Assembly (NCBI GenBank): GCA_032622095.1
Contig: CP136064.1
Span: 192,789,948-192,853,947, forward strand
Direction of reading: 5' to 3'
Origin: Siphonodentalium dalli
Lineage: Eukaryota; Mollusca; Scaphopoda; Gadilida; Siphonodentaliidae
DNA length: 64,000 bases
Below the pieces are notes generated by a model. The model saw only the letters and a list, made by a program, of their open reading frames with translations, searched no databases and was not told where the DNA came from. The position numbers and the translations under genes are program-made. Positions 3,011 through 61,589 of the stretch are shown here, one piece after another. The first letter of the stretch is position 1; each line of letters starts with the position of its first letter.

Positions 3011-3420
3011 TGAAAGTGTTAAGGGAAATACTTGTTAATGATTAGTAAAGAAAAGGTTAAAGCAAAGCCCAATTCATAATTATATGGATGTGTGCCAATT
3101 TCAAATTTCAACATGTCAGAATGGGAAAATATACAAAATTTTTATGACCAAGATTTCCAACTTTGATAATGTATATAGTACCTTGTGTTTAATTGTTGTT
3201 CACCTGAGGCATTCTTTATTGATGTAATTACTTTATCATAAATCCGCATGGTACTGTCAGCTGTGTCAAGTCTGTCTTACTTTTTGTTGGTGATAAAATT
3301 TCAATTAAAAATCTGTTTTTAAAAATGGACTTTTATTAGTCATGATTCTGTCATCAACTCTTTGTGCCCGGTTACAAGCTCTTCCAGAGGGGCCCCCCAG
3401 TAGCTCAGTCATTAACCTCT

Positions 3421-3960
3421 TGGCTGCTATACGTCAGTACAGAGTACAGACCTAAAATGTCATGCTGTGTACAGATCTCTTGGCTGCTGTACATCAGTAC
3501 TGAGTACAGACCTAAAATGTCATGCTGTGTACAGATCTCTTGGCTGCTGTACATCAGTACTGAGTACAGACCTAAAATGTCATGCTGTGTACAGATCTCT
3601 TGGCTGCTGTACATCAGTACTGAGTACGGACCTAAAATGTCATGCTGTGTACAGATCTCTTGGCTGCTGTACATCAGTACTGAGTACAGACCTAAAATGT
3701 CATGCTGTGTACAGATCTCTTGGCTGCTGTACATCAGTACTGAGTACAGACCTAAAATGTCATGCTGTGTACAGATCTCTTGGCTGCTGTACATCAGTAC
3801 TGAGTACGGACCTAAAATGTCATGCTGTGTACAGATCTCTTGGCTGCTGTACATCAGTACTGAGTACGGACCTAAAATGTCATGCTGTGTACAGATCTCT
3901 TGGCTGCTGTACATCAGTACTGAGTACGGACATAAAATGTCATGCTGTGTACGGACCTAC
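3421..3960. repeat. 60-bp minisatellite, nine units
   Basis: Nine consecutive units of exactly 60 bases (TGGCTGCTGTACATCAGTAC, then TGAGTACAGACCTAAAATGT and CATGCTGTGTACAGATCTCT). Inner units are almost identical and differ mainly at ACAGACC/ACGGACC; the first and last are diverged. Because 60 is a multiple of three, stop-free frames extend through the array on both strands. This explains the 249-codon ORF at 3364-4113, which I do not regard as a gene. Confidence 0.95.
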
Positions 3961-4460
3961 GTACCGTGCATCATGAATTTTCGGTCAATGTATCGCTTCA
4001 GGATTGGTAATGATAGTTGCCTTTGCATGAAGTTATTTCTATGGTTTTTGCGACATTCCCATTATATTTTTAAACTGCAAAATGGGCAGAATATCAATGT
4101 CCCCCGTACATGAAGTCATTCAGCAGTGAAGAGGTTAAGGTGTGTACTGAATTAGGTCACCATAAGCGTCCAGTGAATGCAGTGATGGTGAAGCTGGGTT
4201 GGTTCCCAATAAACAGGGATGTGTGATCCATGCAAATGGAGAATAGCCTGATTTGTTTATCTGGACAAGTTTTGTCAGTTGCTTTATTGCGAGGGCTGTA
4301 ATTTGTATGTGCATTGGAGTTAATGCCAGTAATTTCAAGTAACATTAACTTTCCACCACTTATAAAGCTCACCTCTTTCTGATATATGGCTTATTGGCTG
4401 AAACAATGATAAACCCCAATCACCCAACCAAAATCTCCAAGCATTACTCCTCTCATGATA

Positions 4461-4669
4461 CAGTAATGCCCTAAATAATCGACTCCTTAACCACAGCAGA
4501 ATTATTGGTAACTTTTCAGGATTTAGTCGGAAATATGGCTTGTTATTGGAAAGCTCTCAGTGAGAGCTTTCTGATGAATGGCAACAAGCAATATTTCCGA
4601 CTAAATCCTGCTGAAAAGTTACCCATCATTCTGCTGTGGTTAAGGAGTCGATTATTTAGGGCATTACTG
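4461..4669. mobile_element. TA-type palindromic MITE, complete copy (209 bp)
   Basis: The element runs from CAGTAATGCCCTAAATAATC to its inverse GGGCATTACTG and is flanked by TA on both sides. The two halves are almost fully complementary, so the whole unit can fold into one long hairpin around GAAAGCTCTCAGTGAGAGCTTTC. The TA duplication and CAGT-like tip fit a Tc1/mariner-derived MITE (inference). Other copies: 1-44, 15996, 16826, 33002, 51540, 53375, 58782. Confidence 0.92.
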
Positions 4670-4774
4670 TACGTTTTTCTTAAATATGACATTTTTTCAA
4701 GACGCTTGCAGATTCATAGAATCAGATGTGTAACCCAATTTTTTACATTTGGACATTCTTAAAGATACAGATGG

Positions 4775-8167: not shown

Positions 8168-9440
8168 TAGTTTTTAGTCGAGTTTTTTTCCAAAACTCGA
8201 CTTATAGTTTGATGAGGGACGGTGGGCGGGCGGACGGGCGGGCGACGTGTTTTGCTTATAACTCAACCGTTTATTATGTGTGTGAGTACATATCCATGCA
8301 CATAAGCTGCAGACAAAAAATCGGGTTCGTCCGCACATTTATTACAGAGTTATGGCCCTTTGAATTTTCAGCTCGTTGGCGCGATAACTTCAACAAACGT
8401 TATCCGATTTGATTGAAATTTGGTATATAGGTGTCTCCCAAGAATATCTCGGATGAGTTCGAAAACCAGCCTGGTCCGATAAAATTTGATAGAGTTATGG
8501 CCCTTAATTAGTCATTTTTCACAAATTTTCAGCTCGTTAGCGCGATAACTTCAACAAACGTTATCCGATTTGATTGAAATTTGGTATATAGGTGTCTCCC
8601 AAGAATATCTCAGATGAGTTCGAAAACCGGCCTCGTCCGATAAAATTTGATAGAGTTATGGCCCTTAATTAGTCATTTTTCACGAATTTTCAGCTCGTTA
8701 GCGCGAAATTAAACTTCAACAAACGTTATCCGATTTGATTGAAATTTGGTATATAGGTGTCTCCCAAGAATATCTCGGATGAGTTCGAAAACCGGCCTCG
8801 TCCGATAAAATTTGATAGAGTTATGGCCCTTAACTAGTCATTTTTTATGAATTTTCAGCTCGTTAGCGCGATAACTTCAACAAACGTTATCCGATTTGAT
8901 TGAAATTTGGTATATAGGTGTCTCCCAAGAATATCTCGGATGAGTTCGAAAACCGGCCTCGTCCGATAAAATTTGATAGAGTTATGGCCCTTAACTAGTC
9001 ATTTTTTACGAATTTTCAGCTCGTTAGCGCGATAACTTCAACAAATGTTATCCGATTTGATTGAAATTTGGTATATAGGTGTCTCCCAAGAATATCTTGG
9101 ACGAGTTCGAAAACCAGCCTGGCCCAATAAAATTTGATAGAGTTATGGCCCTTAATTAGTCATTTTTCGTGAATTTTTAGCTCGTTAGCGCGATAACTTC
9201 AACGAACGTCCTCCGATTTGTTTAAAATTTGGAATAAACATACTTGCCAAGAATATTTCGGACGAGTTCGAAAACCAGCCTGGCCCGATAAAATTTGATG
9301 GAGTTATGGCCCTTAATTAGTCATTTTTCGATTTTACCTATTAATTAGTCTACCGATACTGATGCACACCTATTGGCGGTAGCCACCGAAACGAGACACA
9401 GCATCTCTGATGCCACCTCTTGTTCTTATTTGATAGGCAG
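8168..9440. mobile_element. Repeat element with ~161-bp tandem units (six)
   Basis: A terminal hairpin (AGTCGAGTTTTTTTCCAAAA-CTCGACTT, about 8176-8203) and a GGGCGGGCGGACGGGCGGGC tract precede units that restart with CAGCTCGTTAGCGCGATAAC at about 8369, 8530, 8691, 8856, 9017 and 9178. Units share TTGAAATTTGGTATATAGGT and TAGAGTTATGGCCCTTAATT. The end contains GCATCTCTGATGCCACCTCT. Tandem-bearing dispersed elements of this kind are known in bivalves (pearl/Helitron-like); that class is an inference. A related decayed element starts at 26410. Confidence 0.75.
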
Positions 9441-15010: not shown

Positions 15011-15484
15011 ATATTTTCAATATTTGAGGTTTCAGGATGATGACTTTTATTCCAAACATAGCCAATCCTTCATTCCGAACATAGCCAATCCTTCAGTTAG
15101 CCACCGTGTCCAGGACATTTTTGTCGGTCGACCATTTATTTATTTAGACGTAGAATTTAGTTATTATACTACTAATCAAAATGAAAGTAGCTATTGTTAA
15201 CACGTAGACAGTTGGATGCAAATTTAATTCAATGATTGTTACCAGAATCAAAGTTGTCATTTCTAAAAAAGCCCCCGGTCAATTAAAACCACCTGTTTCG
15301 AGGGATGTGTGGGTTAGCAGTCTTTTATTTAACCTATAATATGAATACTGTCAAGACTGGTAGTTCTGTATTAGGAGTAGACTTTGCTATACATTATGCT
15401 TTTGATCAAATGAACACCACAACCGCCGTGGTGGCTTTAGTTGTAGAACATATTTGCAGTTATATTTCTTATCTAATTTTGCAG

Positions 15485-15851
15485 GTGGCATCTGTGGAGT
15501 CCTATTTGCTTGTTGATGGTGCAGAAATGAATGGGAATCAACTCCATGTTGATCATCAGGTTCCTCGGCGATTCTCTGAGCAGCCCCCTGTTCTTAGTAA
15601 CCATGCTGCACAGTCATATGATGCAGACAGCCACATCGTGGAAATGGATCGGAGAGAATGCTTGGACCATCTAGGCAGTCTTGTTGACGACGTTGAGAAA
15701 ATGTTTGAGAAATCCAAATCATTTAATCTCGCTTCATTGTCGGGGGAGTCTCAGGCAGTTCCCGCTCGTCGCAGTGACGTGAACAACTCTGTGGAAGAAA
15801 TCCCACAAGTCGATAGCGATAGGAGGCATTTTTGTGAAGAAGACTTCAGGA
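15485..15851 (+). CDS. SLC4 anion exchanger (AE2/AE3-like), exon 1 of the recognised series
   Basis: This is the most upstream exon I can connect to the anion-exchanger gene. It follows a pyrimidine-rich acceptor ending TTTTGCAG and ends at donor GA|GTGAGT, in phase 1. It encodes about 122 residues with an amphipathic stretch (RRECLDHLGSLVDDVEKMFE) and ends in the block EEDFR, which continues in the next exon as SHRRASFPHIHQPL. From family knowledge, vertebrate AE2 has a matching EEDF plus His-rich segment near its N-terminus. The open frame runs upstream to an ATG at 15305, but that stretch looks intronic and precedes a good acceptor. The first ATG inside the exon is at 15527. Whether translation starts there or in an unseen upstream exon is undecided. 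The product is a plasma-membrane Cl-/HCO3- exchanger whose N-terminal half is cytosolic. Confidence 0.8.
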
Positions 15852-15995
15852 GTGAGTACCTTCACACTTAGATCATTTCATGAATCTCTACTCTGGCTTT
15901 GCATGTAGAGATCATACTCCATCAGTTCAAAACCCTTTTTGTCGCGTTCTGAGGATCAAAATACCTCTATGAAATACTCAGAAACAGGAGAGGTA

Positions 15996-16167
15996 CTGTA
16001 ATGCCCTAAATAATCAACCCCTTAACCACAGCAGAATTATGGGTAACTTTTCAGGATTTAGTCGGAAATATGGCTTGTTGCCATTCATCGGAAAGCTCTA
16101 ACTGAATCCTGAAAAGTTACCCATAATTCTGTTATGGTTAAGGGGTTGATTACTTAGGGCATTACTG
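15996..16167. mobile_element. TA-type palindromic MITE, complete copy
   Basis: This copy is flanked by TA. It has the variant tip CTGTAATGCCC and TCAACCCCTTAACC in place of TCGACTCCTTAACC. The central part of the right half is deleted (172 bp against 209). It lies in intron 1, about 145 bases after exon 1. Confidence 0.9.
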
Positions 16168-16825
16168 TATGCCTTGCAAAGACATGCATGTCAGAGAGAC
16201 CAAAACTAACGAGTATTTTTTCTCTATTATGTTAATAGAGTTTTCTGTTATAGTTTCTTCCTGAATCTCTTCTCTGGCTATGCCAATAGAGATCATGCTC
16301 TATCAGTTTAAAACCTGGGAACGTTTTGATGTTCTGACAGGAAAGTTTATAACATTGAATAATCAGTGCAGGTAATATATTGATACACTTGTTATCGAAA
16401 GCGCTAGACCATTTTATGATATTCAAGTGATTGAGTACCTCCCTGGAGGATCATCCTCGCCTAATTTTAATATTTTTTTAGTTAATACATATTCCTTAAT
16501 AATGCATTTCACTGTAGTGAAGGTACCAGCTCGAGATTGCATGATTTAAAGTGACTATGGTAAGCAATTTTGCTTTGCGTCGCTTACAATCATAGAATTT
16601 CTCCTGGGTAATCAAGTCAATGTTTATTGCAATATCGGCTCACAAAATTAACAAATATCTTGTATTGGGACCTCCCCTTACTGTGAATTTGAAATAGATT
16701 ATTGAGGAACAAGAAATATATTCCCTACGTTGTTTGTTCATTTTCATAAAATTCCCTGTCAGAACTTAAAAAAGTTTCCTGGTTTTGAACAGGTGGAATA
16801 TGATCTCTCCGGGCATAGCCAGATA

Positions 16826-17006
16826 CAGTAATGCCCTAAATATTCGACACCACAGCAGTCTAAGCAGAATTATGGGTAATTTTTCAAGATTTAGTTGGAA
16901 ATATGGCTTGTTGCCATTCATCGGAAAGCCATATTTCAGGCTAAATTCTGAAAAATTACCCATAATTCTGCTGTGGTTAAAGGGTCGATTATTTAGGGCA
17001 TTACTG
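16826..17006. mobile_element. TA-type palindromic MITE, complete copy
   Basis: This copy is flanked by TA (16824-16825 and 17007-17008), with tips CAGTAATGCCC and GGGCATTACTG. The left arm has a rearranged CACCACAGCAGTCTAAGCAG segment. It is the second copy within about 700 bases of intron 1. Confidence 0.9.
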
Positions 17007-17940
17007 TACTCATGATATGATCAACTTCACACCCAGACTATTTAAAAACCAACGATAATCTTATGAGATTTACATTTGTGGAAATTCAGATTTGATTTAC
17101 ATGTATGTAATTAGACATATCTCAGAATGGGTGCTATTTCATTTGTTTTGCACGCAACAGCTCATTGCAAGGTGGAATGCATCTCTTTAAAAATCTGATA
17201 ACAATTACAACCACAGCTTTAAAGATTGGTTATATTTAAATTGAGAGATTGGAGGTCAATGATGTGTTGACAATTTCCTCATGCATCGTAAAACACAACA
17301 TCTTTTGTAATACAGAATACAGGGGACATATAATTTTTAATTCATTACTTAGTATTCTCATTGCAATCTAGGAGATATTATCTTTGATTTTATCAACCAT
17401 TTCCTATGAAATTCCCTGATAAAATTGGCGATAACGAATTGGCAATAAAAATATCTGCATCATTAGTGCAGTTGCAGTACAAGGCGCGTATGACGTATTT
17501 GACTGGTTCAAAATCATGCATGAACTGACGTCACATCAATCGCATGCACAATCAAAACAACATTCCAATGAATATTCTTGCGCATTATAAACAAACAGTT
17601 GTTAGATTTTAACATTATTTGATTGCCTCCCATCGTGGGTATTATTGTAAAATATATCACAAATAAATCATATTTGTTGAGTATTTATTATATAATTAGA
17701 TAAAAATGCAGGTGTAAGATATTTTGTCCATTGAATTCAATTTCCGTTAGGTATATTCGCATGAACTTGCAGGTTGGGAGAATTAAGCAAATGCAGCTGA
17801 TCGTGTGACACTGATATATTTAGCAGGTTGGGAGAATTTACACAAGAAAGCAAATCGTCGAACACAACAAATTCAACGATTTTGGCATTTAAAAAACTCA
17901 TAAAATGTAATTTGTGTGATGAATTCAGTCATACGAATGG

Positions 17941-21393: not shown

Positions 21394-22091
21394 CACACAA
21401 ATCGCACGTGTCATGATATGCCAGACATGATTTCTGGGCATGATGTAGTCCACAGTTCGGCATGGCCTGGGTTTACTTACTTAGCGTATACCATATGTGT
21501 TCGTGTTTGAATTTTTGTCAGACATATTTGTTACGATTGTTGTGAAACCGGAGTGCCTCATACTGTAGACCCATCTCGATGGGCATCTTTGATTGGGTAA
21601 CTTCTCGGTTTACTGAGAAAGTTGTTGCAAAAATCGTCAAAGTGAGTTGAAATGATGATCAATTTTATCAAGCGTTCGTTACGTTGGGCTTATGAAAACT
21701 TGCTTTTAATGATTTTTCCCTCAAACGGGACACATATACTGAGAGGGATTCTATAGGCGATTGATGCAAGTTCGAGAATTTGAGGCGATGTACACGAAAG
21801 CTCACGTTAACAATGATGTCAATTTGATGAACAAGCAAAGTTCACAGGTCTGCGGGATTTATCTGCTGAGCTACAGCGAGTCCTGACGCGAGTACTCGTA
21901 TCATGCCTTCATCACCGATTCCGATTTTAAGCTTGGTTGCTTTTTTATGTTGCATCAGTGTTAAGGCAATAATACAATAATTTTCTGAATATCCCTCAAA
22001 AATGAATAATAGACCATTCCAATGTACACTTTTGTATCTGAATGCGTGAGTCCATTTAGTAAAGAAAGTGTTAAATTTGTTGTCTCTGCAG

Positions 22092-22512
22092 GATGATCAT
22101 GAAGAGCGAGATGAAACTGACCACTTATTGGCAGAGGAGGTAGAAGATTTCAATCTCCCAGGTGACTCTGACAGTACGTCAGATGATTTCTACAGCTCGA
22201 CTAGTGACAGTGGAGCGATTCGAGAAACAGCAATATTATCAGATGGCACCGATGATGATGGCGATGTCCAGAAGAAAAAGGATAATCTTAATCTGGATAT
22301 TCCTAAAATAGGTTTTTATATCGGAGATGACTCCAGGTCGGCACCATCAAGTAAAGCTGATGACCTTGATGTCATAACCCCAATGACTGGTGAAACAGAG
22401 AAATTTGATCCTTATTTTGGTGATGATGAGCCAGCCCTGTCCAGGAAATCTTCACTTGTTAAGAATAAACCCAGCAAAATGCCTAGTGATGGACAAGTTA
22501 GATTCCAGATCG
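22092..22512 (+). CDS. SLC4 anion exchanger, exon 3 (acidic Ser/Asp-rich exon)
   Basis: The acceptor is TGTCTCTGCAG and the donor is ATCG|GTAAGA. The exon encodes 140 residues plus one base (phase 1). The protein is very acidic and Ser-rich (DDHEERDETDHLLAEEVEDF, then SDSTSDDFYSSTSDSG), with a repeated idea of a short hydrophobic/Gly motif followed by DD (IGFYIGDD, DPYFGDD, VRFQIG). It is the largest exon seen and probably disordered, with many potential casein-kinase-type Ser sites (inference). From family knowledge, the N-terminal leader of AE2/AE3 is acidic and poorly conserved. A decayed TTAA-type repeat ends only about 17 bases upstream of the acceptor, so repeat DNA abuts the splice site. 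Confidence 0.85.
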
Positions 22513-23108
22513 GTAAGATTTAACCCTTTGAACCTATAACTTCAAACTATTTTGCTGCTCGTAATCTCAAAATATTTGCATAATAAATGTACATTTCGCG
22601 CCTTTGAGTTCTCCGTCAATACATGGTTGAATCGTGCATGATTAATATAATAGTGAATTGGCTTTGCTTTGCCGATAAAATATTCTTTACAACAAAATCA
22701 CAATTGCATTGTGCTATATATGTGATTATTATTATCATATTTCAAATGGTAATCTTGTGACCCCCAAACACTGTATTTGGTTGTTTGGGAATTTCCCAGG
22801 AAAATTGGTGGACGCAAAACAAATTGTGAAGGAATGAAAAGTTCTACGATGACCATGTCACAAGTTGACAAAATTACAAACCTAATGCAAAATAATCGAG
22901 TCAGTGATGGTTCGAATAAAAAAATGAAAATGAAATGGACTATTTAAGTCATATTGTTCTGATGAATAAGGGATTGAGTTTGAGAATATATATGTGTACA
23001 GCTACTATGGCCACGATGATAGGTCAATATCAATAAAATACCACCAACTTTCCAACAGGGAATTTGGCAATAATAGCGATGTTGGCATGGTAACCATCTA
23101 ACCATGAT

Positions 23109-32659: not shown

Positions 32660-32900
32660 CCTTTCCATGACCAGAGCTTCCTGAAATTTTGTAAAAACCC
32701 TGTGCCAATGCATTTTCTTATATATAGGGAGTCTCGCATATATAAGAGAATACATTGGCCTAACAATGTTTACCTTTACCTTGTAAGCCATTGCATTCTC
32801 TTATATATGCGAGGCTCCCTATGGGAGACTCGCATATATAAGCGAATGCACTGGCACAGAATCCTTAGTGCTGCACCAGCTCAGCTATGTCATGAAATGA
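32660..32900. mobile_element. TTAA-type multi-hairpin element, copy in intron 8
   Basis: TTAA flanks both sides (32656-32659 and 32901-32904). The element reads CCTTTCCATGACCAGAGCTTC, two palindromes of CATATATAAGAGAAT type and a TTTACCTTTACCTTGTAAGC linker, then CATGAAATGA. Confidence 0.8.
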
Positions 32901-33001
32901 TTAATGATTGTTGCTGGTGAAGCTTTCCAGACATATGGCTATGATGCTACTGGTTTATAAGCCAACCCTGAGATCTATATATCACTCTACTTGAACATCT
33001 T

Positions 33002-33202
33002 CAATAATGCCCTAAATAATCGACTCCTTAACCACAGCAGAATTACGGGTAATTTTTCAGGATTTAGTTGGAAATATGGCTTGTTGCCATTCATTGGAAA
33101 GCTCACTCTGATGAATGGCAACAAGCCATATTTCCGACTAAATCCTGAAAAATACCCATAATTCTGCTGTGGTTAAGGAGTAGATTATCTAGGGCATTAC
33201 TA
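33002..33202. mobile_element. TA-type palindromic MITE, complete but tip-diverged copy
   Basis: The arms are full-length, with tips changed to AATAATGCCC and GGGCATTACTA. The core ATATGGCTTGTTGCCATTCA and its inverse are intact. Confidence 0.88.
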
Positions 33203-33234
33203 TATTCAGGGTTCCTGGCTAAGATTTATTCAGA

Positions 33235-33350
33235 TACCAAGCCTTGAAATTGTGTGTCTGCCATTTGCAGAATGAGGTCCCCAGAGGGTGAATTTAGTGA
33301 TGCTAGCATCACTAAATTTATCCTCTGGGACCTTATTCTGCTCAGGCCTC
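33235..33350. repeat. Fold-back element fragment (GCAGAATGAGGTCCCCAGAG family)
   Basis: It contains ACCAAGCCTTGAAATTGTGT, then a palindrome of GAATGAGGTCCCCAGAGGGT and its inverse around GATGCTAGCATC. Only one outer arm is present. Confidence 0.75.
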
Positions 33351-33780
33351 ATCTTCTGGGAAGTATCTGTAGTCTCAAATTAACATTGTTTTCAGTTACT
33401 TTTTCCCCTTTGTTCAGTTTCTATATCCCTTAATTTACAGAAGATAAAATGCATAAACAAGTTTTCAAAACAGAAGGACTCTTTGGTATTTATAAGCCTT
33501 GTCTTTTGTAGAATTGTTGTTGTTGTAACTTGAGGTTTGGAACCCTGAATACATCTGTAATTGTTTATTGTAAAATCTTAACAATTCACTCATCTTTTGT
33601 GATGGCCTTATTTGTGAACAGTGTAACCGTTGTACAGGTCAGGCACATCTTGAATTTGGCTATTATAGTTATATTTAACTGGTATAGTTAGAATTTGACA
33701 ATGATAACTCCATTATTCCTGCTTTTTTTGTGGAAACTTGGGGTAGCACATCCCAGTTCACAGCCAAATTGCACTCTTAA

Positions 33781-35363
33781 CCCTTTCAGTGCCAGGGGCC
33801 GATCTCATCGGCCCTAATTTATGGTCTCAAAAAAATTAAAAGATTAAAAAAAATTTGGATTGAATTTTTTGTGTGGGTATGCTTAAGCATGCTATAGCAA
33901 ATTTAAAAACAAACTGGATAAAACCTTAGGGGCATGTTATAACTCAAAACTATCACCAAGTTTTCATAGTAATAATTTTGATGCCCATGAAAAACGTAAG
34001 ATTCCCTGGCACTAAACCTACAAAATAAGTCTGTTAAAGAATATAAGAAAAAATTATTAAAATTGTAAAAAATTGTAAAAAATAATAACAAATGAAAAAT
34101 AGTTAGGCCAATGCATTTTTTTATATATGCGAGGCGACCTATGGTTGACTCGCATATATAAGAGAATGCATTGGCACAGGGTATATCCGTTGAAAAATCG
34201 GACCTGGCACACTTAATTTTCGAACCCCCAGATTACATTTTATAAAATATATGCCATATTATATACCATTTGAAAGAGGAAGCTCCAAAACATTGTAGTA
34301 TCAACGTATCCGGTGTTATAAACTGTGGACATGTTGTTTTTGTTGAGTTACCAATGCGTTTTGTCATCAAGATTGAAGTAAAAATCAGTATTATTTTCAA
34401 TGCAGGGGGGAATAACTCTATATATTAAATGTAGAGTTCTTCCCCTTCCATTGAAAATATTTGAATTATGTTGCTTTCTGGGTGCCAAAGGGGGGGGGGG
34501 GGAGTCTTTCTATAATTTCAGCAGTTTTCTATTTCTCTGTGGGCATCTTCTGAGACACAGCTGTTTCAAATAGTGATGAATTATAGTATTTTAATCATAT
34601 TTTATGGCATAGATTGTTATTAAAGCCATATATCAAGTCACTATAAAAAAAATAATCGGAGACTCAAAAATTAAGTGGGCCTTTAACAATATTGCAGCAA
34701 ATGAACATTCTCCGCATAGAATTAGATTTGCAACCTTTTGCGCCTGCTTATTTTATTTAATAATGGCACTCCTTACTAAACCGACATTAATATGATGACA
34801 CAACCGATACTTCATAACAATATTTAGATCATTTGGATGCCTTCTTATCATATGCCATCATGATTAATCATTCGCATGGACAAGCCTTGAAATAGTGTGT
34901 CTGTCATTTGCAGAATGAGGTCCCCAGAGGGTGAATTTAGTGATGCTACCCCGCATAGCGGGCTAGCATCACTAAATTCACCCTCTTGGGGCCTCATTCT
35001 GCTGAGTTGTAAGCAGAATGAGGTCTCCAGAGGGTGAATTTGGTGATGCTAGCCTGCTATGCGGCTGCAAATGACAAACACACTATTTCAAGGCTTGGTG
35101 CCATCATGATTAATCATTCGCATGGATCGGGACAAGTTATTCCATCATAAAAACAGGCGAGACTGATTTTGAATAATTTTTGTGAATTATGATTTTGGAT
35201 TATCCCTCTTTTATCGAATTCACAAATCAAATTCACAATATCCATATTCAACTTTTAACTTTAATTATAATAATGTATAACATTATTATAATCAATAAAT
35301 TTGAAAAATGATCAAGGAAATATGGGTTGGTATAAAAATCGGACTTGGCACTGACTGAAAGGG
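33781..35363. mobile_element. TTAA-flanked element (1.58 kb) with CCCTTTCAGTGCCAGG tips
   Basis: TTAA (33777-33780 and 35364-35367) flanks inverted tips CCCTTTCAGTGCC and GGCACTGACTGAAAGGG. The internal sequence repeats ATCGGACTTGGCAC-like text near both ends. It carries a nested palindrome (34104-34187) and a nested fold-back (34882-35098), but no long ORF. Confidence 0.75.
34882..35098. mobile_element. Fold-back element (AAGCCTTGAAATAGTGTGT tips), 217 bp
   Basis: The outer arms CAAGCCTTGAAATAGTGTGT and CACACTATTTCAAGGCTTG are inverted. Inside lie three alternating copies of GCAGAATGAGGTCCCCAGAG with GGTGAATTTAGTGATGCTAG, forming a second palindrome around CCCCGCATAGCGGG. Relatives: 33235-33350, 42285-42395 and a decayed one at 42600-42700. 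Confidence 0.8.
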
Positions 35364-37056: not shown

Positions 37057-38100
37057 TTGGTGCGCTCCCTGGACTATCGAATGGGACGTCAATCTGCTTC
37101 TGCGGGTCGACCATTGGCTGTTGACGTGCCCCGGACGGCTGTGACCACTGAGCTCTACTAAAACACTCGACACACGCCGTCCATCGCTACAAGTCGTCAT
37201 CTCGGGGTCAGCGCGGCTGGGGGATACACCCTCGGTGATCCCTGACCATGCTCTCCGGTGCCTTATGATCATAGTGTGTGGAATTTGGGCTTAAATTACT
37301 AGTCGAATGGCCTTTTTTACTTTGTCTCAATTCAAATTAGGAGACTTTTTCTCAAATTATTACATTTACGCAATTATTTGGCACCTGAAAGTTTATCCTC
37401 CATGCCTTCTGCCCCAGCTGGGCTTGGAATGGGATCACAGTTCACAGGCTTGTTTCCTCCTTATTATAAGTCCCCACTTTCGGGGGCTTGGCTGACAGGT
37501 TACTGGCCGCATTCTGGCCAACAGCTGCCAGTAACTTCGGGTTTGATTTTAAATGAAAACAAAAGATCTTATTACCTGACGCCATTATAGCAGGAAGCTT
37601 GCTTGGGAACTGGTACTTACTAACCTCCCATCGCCAGTTCGGTCGGTTGGATATCGGGATCGGTCCTGCTGCTGCTCCACCCCAAGATGTACAGGCTCTG
37701 GACATTTCTCCGGGGTCCCCAATGACCAGACCTCACATGCAATTAGAAATGAAGCTTGTCGTGGTGTATTGTGCTGTTAACACTCCATCGACGGATGGAG
37801 ATCAGGATCAGATCGAGCAGTCGCTCCAGCACGAGGTGAAAGGGCTTTCGACATTCCTTTCGGGTCACCTTTACATGCGCTTACGAGGGAGCTCAGTTAG
37901 TTGTTCAGGGTTCTCTGATGCAGCCAAGCGCAGGAAGAAAATTAATGTCGAATTTTGATTAGCAAATAACCTCAGATTGACATGATTTGATAGCATTGTT
38001 CTACAATCATTTACAATTTAACAGAACATCAGAGTGCTTTCCCTTGTTTCGAGGGTTCCAAGGAAGCGATAGAAACCTTTACGACCAGGACACTGTCACT

Positions 38101-45066: not shown

Positions 45067-46374
45067 AGCTCAACTTTACTTTGTAAAGTTTGAGCTATTG
45101 CCATGGCTTTGTCGTCCGTCGTGCGTGTGCGCGTGTGTGCGTAAGGTGTCAACAATGCAGTCTACAGGTCGTACCTTTGATCGGATCATTATGAAATTTG
45201 TCATAGCTGTTGACATCAACATTTAGACTAGAATGATTCATTTTGGGGTCATTCGGTAAAAAAACATGGCCGCCAGTGGCCATCTTGCATTTCAAAATTC
45301 AATCCATTAGCACGGGCTACAGGGCGTACTGTTTGTCTGATCGTCATGAAATTTGTCATGGATGTTAATATTGACATGTAGATGGGAACGAGTAATTTTG
45401 GGGTCATTTGGCCCAAAAACATGGCCGCCAGCAGCCATCTTGGATTTTACTCTTTGTATGACTAAATTCTTTAGCACGGGCTACAGGTCGTACTATTAGT
45501 CTGATCATCATAAAATTTGTCAAGAATGTTAATAATGACATGTAGATGGGAACGAGTCATTTTGGGGTCATTCGGCCAAAAAACATGGCCGCCAGCAGGC
45601 ATCTTTGATTTCACTCTTTGTATGACTAAATCCTTTAGCACGGGCTACAGGTCGTACCTTTAGTCCGATCATCATAAAATTTGTCATGGCTGTTAATATT
45701 GACATGTAGATGGGAACAAGTCATTTTTGGGTCATTCGGCCTAAAAACATGCGGCCAGCAGCCATCTTGGATTTTACTCTTTGTATGACTAAATTATTTA
45801 GCACGGGCTACAGGTCGTACCTTTAGTCTGATCATCATCAAATTTGTCATGGATGTTAATATTGACATGTAGATGGGAACGAGTAATTTTGGGGTCATTT
45901 GGCCCAAAAACATGGCCGCCAGCAGCCATCTTGGATTTTACTCTTTGTATGACTAAATCCTTTAGCACGGGCTACAGGTCGTACCTTTAGTCTGATCATC
46001 ATAAAATTTGTCATGAATGTTAATAATGACATGTAGATGGGAACGAGTCATTTTGGGGTCATTCGGTCAAAAAACATGGTCGCCAGCAGCTATCTTGGAT
46101 TTTACTCTTTGTATGACTAAATCCTTTAGCACGAGCTACAGGTTGTACCTTTAGTCTGATCATCATAAAATTTGTCATGAATGTTAATAATGACATGTAG
46201 ATGGGAACGAGTCATTTTGGGGTCATTCGGCCAAAAAACATGGCCGCCAGCAGCCAACTTGGATTTTACTTTTCTCTTCATGTCTTTTAACTAGTATTAG
46301 ACATTCAACTTTCCACATTCCTAATCGCTCCATTGACTGTAATACATTAAATTATTCCCTTTCCAAGTTGAGCT
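45067..46374. mobile_element. Repeat element with ~163-bp tandem units and AGCTCAACTT ends
   Basis: The ends are AGCTCAACTTTACTTTGTAA-AGTTTGAGCT (hairpin) and AAGTTGAGCT. Between them, about 6.5 units repeat ACATGGCCGCCAGCAGCCAT, CTTTGTATGACTAAATCCTT, TTAGCACGGGCTACAGGTCG and GACATGTAGATGGGAACGAG at a spacing of 152-166 bases. Decayed relatives lie at 2524-3010, 12060-12250 and 14085-14580. Confidence 0.78.
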
Positions 46375-47900: not shown

Positions 47901-48359
47901 TGTGACCCGCCATATCAAATCCAGTAGTAAGTCGGGATTTTTTTTACCCTGTGCCAATGCATTCTCTTATATATGTGAGTCGACCATAGGTCGCCTCGCA
48001 TATATAAGAGAATGCATTGGCCTAACAATTTTTTACAATTTTAATAATTTTTTCTTGTATTCTTTAACAATTTTATAATTTCACCCATACAGAGCCCCAG
48101 ACAAACATGAGCAGACGACACTCTTCTATATGCTTCTATATATGTGTGGGGCTCCCTGCAGGGTAATGGATGTTTTTTATTTTATGTCCTAAAAATTGTA
48201 AGAAACATTTATTTAAAAAAAATGATAAAAAATTGTTAGGCCAATGCATTCTCTTATATATGCGAGGCGACCTATGGTCGACTCGCATATATAAGAGAAT
48301 GCATTGGCACAATGTAAAAAAATCCCGACTTACGACTGGATTTGATATGGCGGGTCACA
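47901..48359. mobile_element. Composite palindromic element with TGTGACCCGCC tips (459 bp)
   Basis: The tips TGTGACCCGCCATATCAAAT and its inverse are flanked by TA on each side. Just inside lie matching AAGTCGGGATTTTTTT arms. Next, in mirror order, come two copies of the GCCAATGCATTCTCTTATAT palindrome (47951-48022 and 48240-48308). The unit is thus palindromes within a palindrome, sharing modules with the TTAA multi-hairpin family. Confidence 0.82.
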
Positions 48360-51266: not shown

Positions 51267-51539
51267 GATGAGACACCCCCCCCCCCCCTTCCTATTTTGG
51301 TCAAAATTTAGTGGGATTTTTTTTGTTTTTAGCCCAAAAGTCAAATAATTTGCTATTTTCGAGGATGTGGTGCAAATGGGGAGGTTCAGTTGGTAATTCT
51401 AAGCTGATTCCCCCCATATCCAACAGGGACACATTAACCATGTCCCTGCCTTTACATCCTGTCTCTCATTGGCTGATCCAATGGAGACTCTGGTCAGTCT
51501 CAATAGGTTCCTCTATTGGTAGATACAGTCAGAGGTATA

Positions 51540-51604
51540 CAGTAATGCCCTAAATAATCGACTCCTTAACCACAGCAGAATTATGGGTAACTTTTCAGGA
51601 TTTA
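51540..51604. mobile_element. TA-type palindromic MITE, left arm only
   Basis: The arm runs from CAGTAATGCCC to TTTTCAGGATTTA and then stops abruptly at ACATGTCTCC, about 55 bases before the TIR element at 51659. The second half is missing. Confidence 0.88.
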
Positions 51605-51658
51605 ACATGTCTCCTTATTTTGTAAACACTCTTACATTGCGAAAAATTCTAAACTTTA

Positions 51659-52891
51659 AGGCCATATAAACTTAATAGTTTGTTTCTCAGGGATTTTTTT
51701 TTTCAAAGTGATGAGGGAGGCAGTTATTTATATTTATTATTTTTTTCAAATTAATTTTGTGGTGAGGCAGGTATTTATATATATAATATTTATCGGAGTC
51801 CCATATTAAGGAATAATACTGGATATGGGCAATATACTGAAGCAGGGAAGCTGACCATCATATATCCCCTTAATAATCTAGATTTGTAATAAAGTTGTAT
51901 AGAGGAAACAGTTTGAGTTATTCACTCATGGCAGAAGATGTGGAAACTACATCGGTGAAATTTGATGTAACTCAGGGTGACCACCAGCCAGATCAAGCTT
52001 TATTGGAAGGAGTTCCACTGGACTACACATGAATTGATAATATTAAATCACAACAATAATTTATGAAATAAAAAGTTTATTTTCTAATTAATCACAGACT
52101 GTCATAAAAATCTTGAAGTTTGGAATAGTGCTGATCCACAAACCAGAGTGCATAACATACAATAGCCACACATTGCCGACCCACACTGTCAACGCTAACC
52201 TTTCGGAAGCCCACTTTGTTTTCAACCAGTCAATGAATGAATTGCACAATTTGTTATGTTTGTTTTTCACATTTGTCTTACTGGGCAACACCAACTCCTT
52301 GCAACTTGTCATCAGCACCGAGAATACATCAACTACTTCTCCCGATTTATTCTCTGGTACATCTTCTTTGGTCACTTGAATTTGAAAATATCGTCCGAAA
52401 AATTGCGTGACTTCAGAAAACATGATGATCATGATCATGATGTCTCCTGCAACTGTGTCAAAGTCCCCCGTTTTCGTTTTTGAAACAACCAGGTCAAAAT
52501 CATCGTCAATGTCTTTCGTGGACATGAAATCATCAGCCATTTGAGGAACAGTTTTTGATCTGTTGTCTGATATAATTGTCCATTTGCCTTCCGACGCATT
52601 CTGCACGATACAAATGTTCACCAAAGTCGCCATTTTGTTATTATTTTAAACAGGAAGTTCGTCAGAATTATCCGCCCTTGTTTGTGAATGTAAAGTCCGG
52701 ATAGATTTGCGGTCCGGATAGATTTGCAGTTTGCGTAAAGTTTCAAGACGAAGTTATCGGTCTGGGTCGGTTCGGGACATGCGGTATTTATATATTTATT
52801 ATTTTATAGGTGCCAATAAATAAGGGGGAGGCGCAGGTTTTTGGGGGACGCGGCGATCCCTGAGAAACGAACTATTAAGTGTGTATGGCCT
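51659..52891. mobile_element. 1.23-kb DNA element with 36-bp terminal inverted repeats carrying the 181-codon ORF
   Basis: The left arm (51659-51694) starts AGGCCATATAAACTTAATAG and ends TTTCTCAGGGAT. The right arm (52856-52891) is its reverse complement at about 33 of 36 positions. Inside each arm are related purine-rich stretches (GAGGGAGGCAG on the left, GGGGGAGGCGCAG on the right). I could not fix a target-site duplication: flanks read CTTTA on the left and AAATT on the right. The CAGGGAT inside the arm resembles a hAT tip, but the 8-bp flanks at that point are inverted, not direct, so it is not a simple hAT insertion. Superfamily unassigned. Confidence 0.65.
52088..52633 (-). CDS. Intact 181-codon ORF of unknown function inside a TIR element
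   Basis: This single-exon ORF is antisense to the host gene and lies inside its ninth intron. It starts at an ATG in good context (CAAAATGGCG) and ends with TAA; an AATAAA signal lies seven bases after the stop (complement of 52076-52081). The protein begins MATLVNICIVQNASEGKWTI, has an acidic KDIDDDFDLV segment near residue 40, a Met/Ile-rich hydrophobic stretch (residues ~65-75), the block FFGRYFQIQVTKEDVPENKS, a basic KTNVKNKHNKLC region and a Trp-rich C-terminus. I do not recognise a family and see no transposase catalytic pattern. The ORF sits centrally between 36-bp terminal inverted repeats, so it is probably carried by a mobile element, either as its own gene or as captured host sequence. 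It is clearly better formed than other non-exonic ORFs here. Confidence 0.6.
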   Translation of the reverse strand: MATLVNICIVQNASEGKWTIISDNRSKTVPQMADDFMSTKDIDDDFDLVVSKTKTGDFDTVAGDIMIMIIMFSEVTQFFGRYFQIQVTKEDVPENKSGEVVDVFSVLMTSCKELVLPSKTNVKNKHNKLCNSFIDWLKTKWASERLALTVWVGNVWLLYVMHSGLWISTIPNFKIFMTVCD

Positions 52892-53374
52892 AAATTATTT
52901 TGTTAAAGCAATATAACATAATCTAGTTTGTGTTCTATTTACAAGAACCAGTTAAAAAACTAAGACTTGATCTGGAACTTTTATACCAATAAGAATATCA
53001 ATAATAAACTAGAAGTTAATGCCGGTCTCATTAGTATTGAGGAAATATCACATTCAAGCTTTTTTTTGCAGTTGGCTTGTTACATAAAACCAGAACCCAG
53101 ATCATCCAACCCCAGTCAGCTTTACTATTTTAATTTATTGTTTGTAAAGATATATAGTCATTTGTAAGTCAAAAAACTGGCTGCATATGCACAGTATCAG
53201 CTTGTCATCTTAATATATGTGATTGTTTGCGATAGAATAATCTTACAGCATGGCTGTCTGTAACGCAGGGATGGATATAACACAATATGATTTTGGTTAC
53301 CATTGTGATTTATTAGTGACCCTGTTCAAATAACTAACAGACCTGAATCAAGGTCATGGGTTGTTAATCAGTTA

Positions 53375-53520
53375 CAGTAATGCCCTAAATAATCGACAAC
53401 TTAACCACAGCAGAATTATGGGTAACTTTTCAGGATTTAGTCGGAAATATGGCGATGAATGCCAACAAGCCATATTTCCGACAAAATCCTGAAAAATTAC
53501 CCATAATTCGGCTGTGGTTA
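53375..53520. mobile_element. TA-type palindromic MITE, right tip lost
   Basis: The left arm is complete (CAGTAATGCCC onward) with a shortened loop. The right arm ends at GGCTGTGGTTAA, so the terminal ~25 bases are missing. Confidence 0.88.
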
Positions 53521-53990
53521 ATTTCTCTGCCTTTTAAGGTGACAGCACAAATCCTTGACAGAAATTAGTTGTAGCCCCCAAGATAGCAAAATATGAAACT
53601 CTATTCTGGTTATGTTGCAAAATGGACACATAGAAAACAATTTAAGAGGCATAACTCTTTGGTCAAGAGTGATAGTTTGAAAATTCATTCAATTTATTCA
53701 TGTGGAGAATCCATAGACCAAATTTGGTCAAAATTGGATATTTGTTGGAGTTATCATGCTTACGTTGTGACACATTGAAATGTGCTTTAAATAATTGGGA
53801 ACTGCACAGGTGTAAATTTGTGATCTCACTGGCTGAATTGCTATGCACTTGGTGATGTATAACCAGTATTTATTTCCAAGATGCCACCTGTTTTAACAGT
53901 TTTATTTATGTTTGTGCAATATGCTATAAGTAATTTTTTGGACATTCCTGACCAAAAGTTTTAGAACATGGGTGAATAAATATATATTAA

Positions 53991-58293: not shown

Positions 58294-58520
58294 TAAGATT
58301 CAGCTCTGCCTAATTGTTGGATATATACCGTTAATTTTTTTTAGAAATACATGTATATGTATTTTTGGGCATGGTTGGACTTTATTCAGCTGCCATCAAT
58401 TTCAAAATATCTATAAGGATTACACTACTGCATTTTTAACCAAAGTGATTATTTATATATATCATATTACATAATGTTTCATGTTTCGAAAAATCAAACT
58501 AAAGTCCAACCTCTTTCCAG

Positions 58521-58698
58521 GCATCAAGGAGAAAAGCATCGAGATAGCAAAAATATCAGTCGTAATATGTCAGACGAGAGCTTTCAGAGCATCAAGGACC
58601 AGCTATTCGGATCGACCAAAAACCTAAATCACAAACACCCAGAAATGGATGTCAAAGCAAAACCGGAAATGTTCAAAGTTAATGTTGAAAGCAACATG
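58521..58698 (+). CDS. SLC4 anion exchanger, exon 10
   Basis: The acceptor is CCTCTTTCCAG and the donor is ACATG|GTAAGA. The first G completes ATG from exon 9. It encodes HQGEKHRDSKNISRNMSDES, then FQSIKDQLFGSTKNLNHKHPEMDVKAKPEMFKVNVESNM, and ends in phase 0. The hydrophilic, Lys/Ser/Asn-rich sequence fits the variable linker of the AE cytoplasmic domain before the conserved 'IPE-AEA-VLVG' block, which is not in the window. A truncated palindromic MITE starts only 84 bases after the donor. Confidence 0.85.
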
Positions 58699-58781
58699 GT
58701 AAGATTTGAATAAAAAATCATTGAGATATGCAATACCATATTTATTGGAGGTTTAATTGCAATTCTTCCATCTGAAAACTA

Positions 58782-58920
58782 CAGTAATGCGCTAAGTAAT
58801 CGACTCCTTAACCACAGCAGAATTATGGGTAACTTTTCAGTATTTTGTCAGAAATATGGCTTGTTGCCATTCATCTGAAAGCTCTCGGTGAGAGCTTTCC
58901 GATGAATGGCAACAAGCCAT
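58782..58920. mobile_element. TA-type palindromic MITE, truncated after the central hairpin
   Basis: It starts CAGTAATGCGCTAAG, passes the centre GAAAGCTCTCGGTGAGAGCTTTC and ends in GGCAACAAGCCATA, where TATATATA begins. It lies 84 bases downstream of exon 10. Confidence 0.88.
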
Positions 58921-60314: not shown

Positions 60315-60615
60315 GTAATGTCATCACCCAGGCGACCATATTTTTTGCTTAAAGATCATGACTAACCTTTTTTTTCTCTTTAAATATATACGTTATTTTG
60401 TCAGTTCATTTATTTTGCTTTGTGTGCCTAATTCAGGGATGTTGCGATTACATGCCTAACATATTTGATTACAATACAAATGCTTTCCAATTTGATGATT
60501 ACAAATACAATACAAATACTTTTTCCAGTTGATTTATTTGATTACAAATACAATACTTATCTTAAAATGATATTACATACTTATTGGACCTTCAAAATAA
60601 ACCATACACTATTAA

Positions 60616-60843
60616 CCCTTCCATGACTGGAATTTCCTAAAATTTTGAGAAAACCCTGTGCTAATGCATTCTCTTTTATAAGCAAGTCTCCCATAGGGAG
60701 TCTCGCATATATAAGAGAATATATTGGCCTAGCATTATTTACCTTGACCTTGTAAGCTCCCTATGGGGGACTTGCATATATAAGATAATTCACTGGCACA
60801 GGATCTTTAATGCTACACCAGCAAAGCTCCCATCATGAAAGGG
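60616..60843. mobile_element. TTAA-type multi-hairpin element, complete (228 bp)
   Basis: TTAA lies on both sides (60612-60615 and 60844-60847) with inverted tips CCCTTCCATGACTGG and CATCATGAAAGGG. Both internal palindromes and the TTTACCTTGACCTTGTAAGC linker are present. Confidence 0.85.
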
Positions 60844-61314
60844 TTAACAGCTCATAGAATAGATAAAATATATGCTATAAAAATATCTAAAACATTTAAA
60901 AAGAATAATTTAAAACACGCGCTAACATACTCCATAAAATTTCATCCATTCATCTCAGTCTGTATATTGTGATGTGTATTGTCTTAGTCTGAATAATGGT
61001 TTCCAGATTTAATAGTGCATGCTGGAAATACTGATGGATTTCTTCTTCAGTTTGAATTTCAAATTGATAATTCAAAAATTGGGAAATTTGTGTTGCTGTG
61101 GTTTAATTAGCTTGTTTGTTGGCTTAGCACGCAAGACAGGACCAAACTTCTGACTGCTGAACTATATGTTAAATTATCTGTATTGCTGTTTATTGTTGAA
61201 AAAAGCATGAAAACATCACTCATGATTGTATATGTCATCATTCGCTTATTCAAATTAAAGTTACTTATCATGTTTTTTGCCAAAGGGCCAATATCACACA
61301 ATACATAAGTATTA

Positions 61315-61493
61315 ACTCCATAGGGAGCCTCTCACATAGGAGAATGCACTGGCTTACAAGGACAAGGTAAATATTGTTAGGCCAATTCATTCTCTTATAT
61401 ATATGAGGCTCCCTATGGGAGACTCACATATACAAGAGGATGCATTGGCACAGGGTTTTCAAAAAATTCCAGGAAGCTCCAGTCATGGAAGGG
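61315..61493. mobile_element. TTAA-type multi-hairpin element, left part missing
   Basis: It is in inverse orientation to 60616, beginning inside the first palindrome (CCATAGGGAGCCTCTCACAT) and ending AGTCATGGAAGGG-TTAA. Confidence 0.75.
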
Positions 61494-61589
61494 TTAACTG
61501 ATAACATGCTTTCCTGCTTATTAAAATATTCTTGATAATCTGTAGTATATGAGTTCTAGCAAGTGAAATTATCTGTATTTCAAGTTGTA

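Follow-up and report, generated by a model that had tools for sequence, protein, structure and literature searches.

The window (the whole 64-kb stretch of DNA that we analysed) contains a 1231-bp unit, at 51660-52890, that lies between perfect 3-bp TAA duplications, is bounded by inverted arms, and carries an intact ORF of 181 codons on its minus strand. The features of this element and of its surroundings are collected in Table 1. The only ATG ORFs of at least 60 codons between the arms are the 181-codon ORF and a 75-codon ORF on the opposite strand. A 22-nt AT-rich motif at 52783-52804 is related to the left subterminal direct repeat.

Table 1. Coordinates of the element, its parts and the features around it, in window positions.
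Feature	Position	Strand	Remarks
Left TAA target-site duplication copy	51657-51659		flank reading
Left terminal inverted repeat	51660-51694	+	35 bp, starts GGCCATA
Left subterminal direct repeat	51717-51794	+	two 31-nt copies, 47 bp apart, 84%
34-codon ORF (MAEDVETT...)	51928-52032	+	convergent with the 181-codon ORF
AATAAA	52067-52072	+	downstream of the 34-codon ORF
AATAAA	52076-52081	-	downstream of the 181-codon ORF
181-codon ORF	52088-52633	-	acidic, pI 5.2, 4 Cys, no recognised domain
17-bp tandem duplication	52695-52728		upstream of the 181-codon ORF
Right terminal inverted repeat	52856-52890	-	35 bp, 3 mismatches to the left arm
Right TAA target-site duplication copy	52891-52893		flank reading
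Dispersed palindromic repeat copies	1-49, 4458-4672, 15991-16170, 16821-17009, 33002-33205, 51538-51604, 53373-53527, 58780-58885		
Exon-like ORFs, from one or several large host genes	15287-15871, 22050-22523, 37557-37958, 58417-58713	+	

Gene structure and repeats suggest that the host is an animal, and the host gene may conceivably be BLTP1-like. By eye, GTGAGT or GTAAG was found at or near the ends of the exon-like ORFs that end at about 15.87, 22.52 and 58.71 kb. Because these ORFs lie on the plus strand and have such ends, the element probably sits antisense inside a host intron, as an earlier note on this DNA had proposed; the 40 bases examined at the 37.96-kb end contain neither motif. 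Two further stretches were scored for codon usage, of which the one at 58.4 kb was exon-like (0.087) and the one at 62.1 kb was not (-0.154). Pfam gave nothing at the curated cut-off for six long ORFs, some of them exon-like, or for ten further stretches that included the 34-codon ORF and an upstream frame, and the lowest Pfam E value among these (0.0031) came from low-complexity sequence rich in proline. Four ORFs of the window, compared with the sequences of the PDB, returned nothing significant, a tRNA search with bacterial settings found none, and Rfam showed no match at gathering scores.

The window also contains repeats of other kinds. A dispersed, MITE-like palindromic family (CAGTAATGCCCTAAATAATC...) is present in longer copies of about 150-215 bp and in half copies. 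The outer inverted pair 51566-51603 / 53484-53521, which was considered as a nesting frame, consists of two copies of this repeat, and it therefore does not frame the element and yields no empty site. A tandem repeat at 3417-3952 (60-bp unit, 8.9 copies at 98%) has several open frames and gives rise to the longest ATG ORF of the window, of 218 codons. Tandem arrays at 8362-9329 and 45162-46270 have periods of 161 and 164 bp, with longer multiples scored too. Long inverted pairs at 47939-48322, 60612-61497 and 32733-34133 have a CGCATATATAAGAGAAT motif in common and probably form another dispersed family.

GGCC forms the outermost bases of both arms, with the GGCCATA start present at each end, and is likely the outer end because the adjoining base belongs to the TAA/TAA direct duplication. 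The inverted-pair searches returned the arms as 39 nt at 90% identity and also as 36 nt at 92% (51659-51694 / 52856-52891). The earlier note had described matching arms of 36 bp; the inverted arms exist, but they are 35 bp long, and the longer reading arises because one duplication base per end happens to pair. Inward, the identity decays past a GGGAT boundary. The probability that any 3-mer would match by chance outside the arms is 0.020 in this window, a figure that we estimate to grow several-fold if the end position may shift.

The same flanks can also be read as a TTAA target in which one base of the duplication has mutated, which would make the element a non-autonomous member of the Kolobok type. 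The left flank is indeed TTAA, and the 5'-GG...CC-3' ends obey the RR..YY rule, but the right flank reads TAAA, one mismatch from TTAA, while the TAA duplication is perfect. We regard this reading as quite unlikely.

How much weight the arms can bear depends on their background. No comparable inverted pair appeared in 20 order-2 simulated windows, against 14 found by the same script in the real window, at least 3 of which are copies of the one dispersed palindromic repeat. Because the real window holds 14 such pairs, the arms alone are weak and non-decisive evidence. The abundance of pairs would also suit a unit unrelated to transposition, in which chance arms surround a processed or nested host gene. 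The abrupt limits of the arms, the 3-bp duplication directly outside them, and the absence of such a pair from the simulated windows all speak against that explanation, as does the absence of a poly-A tail after the ORF, and we consider it very improbable. The earlier note had named a processed pseudogene as a finding that would overturn its proposal; the missing tail speaks against one, and the ORF had no host-gene match in Pfam or among PDB sequences. Taken jointly, the arms, the sharp ends and the duplication are fair evidence for a transposon-like unit, in agreement with the earlier note. Within the 64-kb window the arms pair only with each other; the remaining matches were weak, at E 0.066 or above, and fell in AT-rich sections of the element. 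A single copy of the element was seen there, and its mobility is thus putative.

The 181-codon ORF has a good start context (AAAATGG), as had been noted before, and it lies slightly off-centre rather than centrally between the arms, 428 bp from the left end of the element and 257 bp from the right. The AATAAA previously taken as its own poly(A) signal does begin at the seventh base after the stop. However, of the positions sampled, 3.5% have an AATAAA no more than 30 nt away, the element has five of them on its minus strand and three on its plus strand, and because it is common in the AT-rich DNA here, the hexamer is weak evidence. Among the ATG ORFs of the window, the 181-codon ORF ranks third by length, behind the tandem-repeat ORF and an exon-like ORF of 188 codons, and the window holds no second copy of it. 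An ATG ORF of this length was found in 0 of 60 order-1 and 1 of 60 order-2 simulated 64-kb windows, and in none of 2000 simulated 1239-bp elements under either model.

To examine the coding status of the ORF, we measured the periodicity of base usage by codon position. Over 52088-52630, in the plus-strand reading, the value was 33.5, which was reached by 5 of 939 windows in a control that left out windows overlapping four tandem arrays or the ORF; all 5 fall, at least in part, in the exon-like regions near 15.3 and 22.0 kb, which are the two strongest. When these two regions were additionally removed, none of 2666 overlapping control windows (maximum 22.8) reached the ORF periodicity of 35.4, and neither did any of 5000 shuffles of the ORF. 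Without the ATGATC palindrome the periodicity was 28.2, still above the control maximum. The codon score, trained on 437 codons from four exon-like ORFs, was -0.137 for the ORF; null frames averaged -0.297 (sd 0.093), and 388 of 7698 scored at least as high as the ORF. A different frame of the same strand scored higher (-0.036), and in leave-one-out scoring the four training ORFs ranged from 0.097 to 0.183, all above the 181-codon ORF. Its codon usage is thus weakly coding-like and unlike that of the host exon-like ORFs.

The modest codon score, the higher score of another frame, and the occurrence of an equally long ORF in one order-2 simulated window would be expected if the element were MITE-like and the long ORF were accidental or a decayed, untranslated remnant. 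The periodicity, which exceeds all 2666 control windows even without the palindrome, and the element-sized simulations argue against this explanation, which we consider unlikely. Overall, a coding status for the ORF is supported, with length and periodicity in its favour and codon usage opposed. We read the ORF as coding, either with codon habits that differ from those of the host, such as a mobile element would show, or in a partly decayed form.

The 34-codon ORF was scored in the same way. Among 213 ORFs of 30-45 codons in the rest of the window, with the exon-like regions and the element left out, 1 reached its codon score; this comparison was made after the fact, and we treat it as only a lead. 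Pfam showed nothing for this ORF at E up to 10. It may be a remnant, namely the truncated start or an exon of a second gene. The two convergent ORFs have opposed AATAAA hexamers between them, plus at 52067 and minus at 52081, an arrangement such as a decayed two-gene element might leave behind, but AATAAA is common in this AT-rich DNA.

We then looked for proteins related to the 181-aa product. Pfam, which covers many transposase families, gave zero matches at E up to 10, both for this protein and for the 75-codon opposite-strand ORF, and NCBIfam gave no relative at E up to 1. Among PDB sequences there were two matches at E up to 10, neither of them significant, the better being human ARL2-binding protein (E 0.34). 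Searches of phage and plasmid proteins revealed no significant relative; a match to a PHROGs family of unknown function (E 0.035) was taken as chance. Peptide patterns, a search that reaches close relatives only, hit 4 stretches in viral contigs and 25 in prokaryote genomes, none of which was confirmed. At the DNA level, the element had no match among phages, the arm patterns had no exact match in viral and genome contigs, and three exact arm words had no occurrence in the literature text searched. Because the DNA collections searched were prokaryotic, phage, plasmid or viral, the absence of relatives says little. The description of the protein as unlike any transposase, made in the earlier note, agrees with the Pfam result and is weakly tested, the other sets besides PDB being prokaryotic, phage, plasmid or viral. 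An AlphaFold2 model made without relatives had a mean pLDDT of 39.9, and a PDB fold search with it gave 64 hits with E values up to 10, none of which, among the best 50 of the 64 that were listed, reached 0.001. The predicted structure and the fold search are uninformative, and we claim no fold.

These searches also bear on the origin of the ORF. Pack-type elements are TIR units without a transposase that carry a coding segment of host-gene origin. The present element is likewise a TIR unit with a coding segment and no transposase, and differs in that no host parent gene is demonstrated for it. Capture of a host gene, or of its 5' part, by a transposon would suit the strong start context and the periodicity of the ORF, as well as the CpG observed/expected ratio, which is higher in the element (0.79) than in the window (0.63). 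However, the protein shows no significant Pfam or PDB sequence match, the ARL2-binding protein included, and the codon usage differs from that of the host exon-like ORFs. Consequently, we hold a host-derived ORF to be possible but somewhat unlikely.

The reading that we prefer, at about even odds (roughly 0.5), is that of a non-autonomous cut-and-paste DNA transposon that carries its own non-transposase gene, most likely derived from a two-gene parent. The arms with their sharp limits and perfect TAA, their agreement with the published PIF/Harbinger pattern, the length and periodicity of the ORF, and the convergent second ORF with its exon-like codons and the opposed AATAAA hexamers were counted in its favour; the single copy seen, the failure to detect a transposase or Myb/SANT domain, the low codon score and the 14 inverted pairs of the window were counted against it. 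The element is probably a mobile element without a transposase of its own. A larger relative would supply the transposase in trans; once bound to the 35-bp arms, the enzyme would cut the unit out and place it at TAA, a target that fits the PIF/Harbinger group. The minus-strand gene, whose coding status is supported and whose translation and function are putative, would most likely be an accessory gene of the two-gene parent that was retained as most of the transposase sequence was deleted, and the 34-codon ORF would be a leftover of the parent's second gene.

Should the ORF prove to be conserved among copies of the element, the locus would represent a DNA element that lacks a transposase and keeps a protein gene under selection, and would be a test case for an element-encoded accessory function or for gene capture; if not, it would be an ordinary deleted transposon copy. 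It is rather improbable, in our judgement, that the element is the first copy of an undescribed small two-gene family whose 181-aa product is a new accessory or mobility protein within about 1.2 kb.

Finally, we compared the element with known systems. Kolobok transposons duplicate TTAA and have 5'-RR...YY-3' termini, and their lineages carry various accessory proteins (PMC9587614). The present element has an AT-rich target and GG...CC termini alike, and a single mutation would account for the mismatch in its 4-bp duplication, but no transposase was found in it. The KolX (Kol0) ballast fold has seven conserved Cys, whereas the ORF has four (residues 8, 111, 130 and 180), a comparison by Cys count. 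PIF/Harbinger elements, as characterised in PMC4482050, have TWA duplications and arms that are mostly shorter than 60 bp with A or G usually as the first base; the element has TAA on both sides, in one copy, and 35-bp arms that start with G. According to the same paper, both a transposase and a protein with a Myb/SANT domain are encoded by most candidate autonomous copies. In the element no DDE transposase ORF was detected, which is expected if the copy is non-autonomous, and no Myb/SANT second ORF; Pfam gave nothing for the 181-, 75- or 34-codon ORF, although a divergent domain could escape such a search. Non-autonomous PIF/Harbinger elements, including Tourist-like MITEs, are likewise short and without a transposase; in contrast to them, the element has a 181-codon ORF and is longer than the MITEs of 246 to 430 bp named in PMC6850418 and PMC6327408. 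MITEs are without coding capacity and have many copies; the ORF here is coding-like by periodicity, and less so by codon use. Membership in the group not being established, we file this likely mobile element as one that works like a non-autonomous element of the PIF/Harbinger type.
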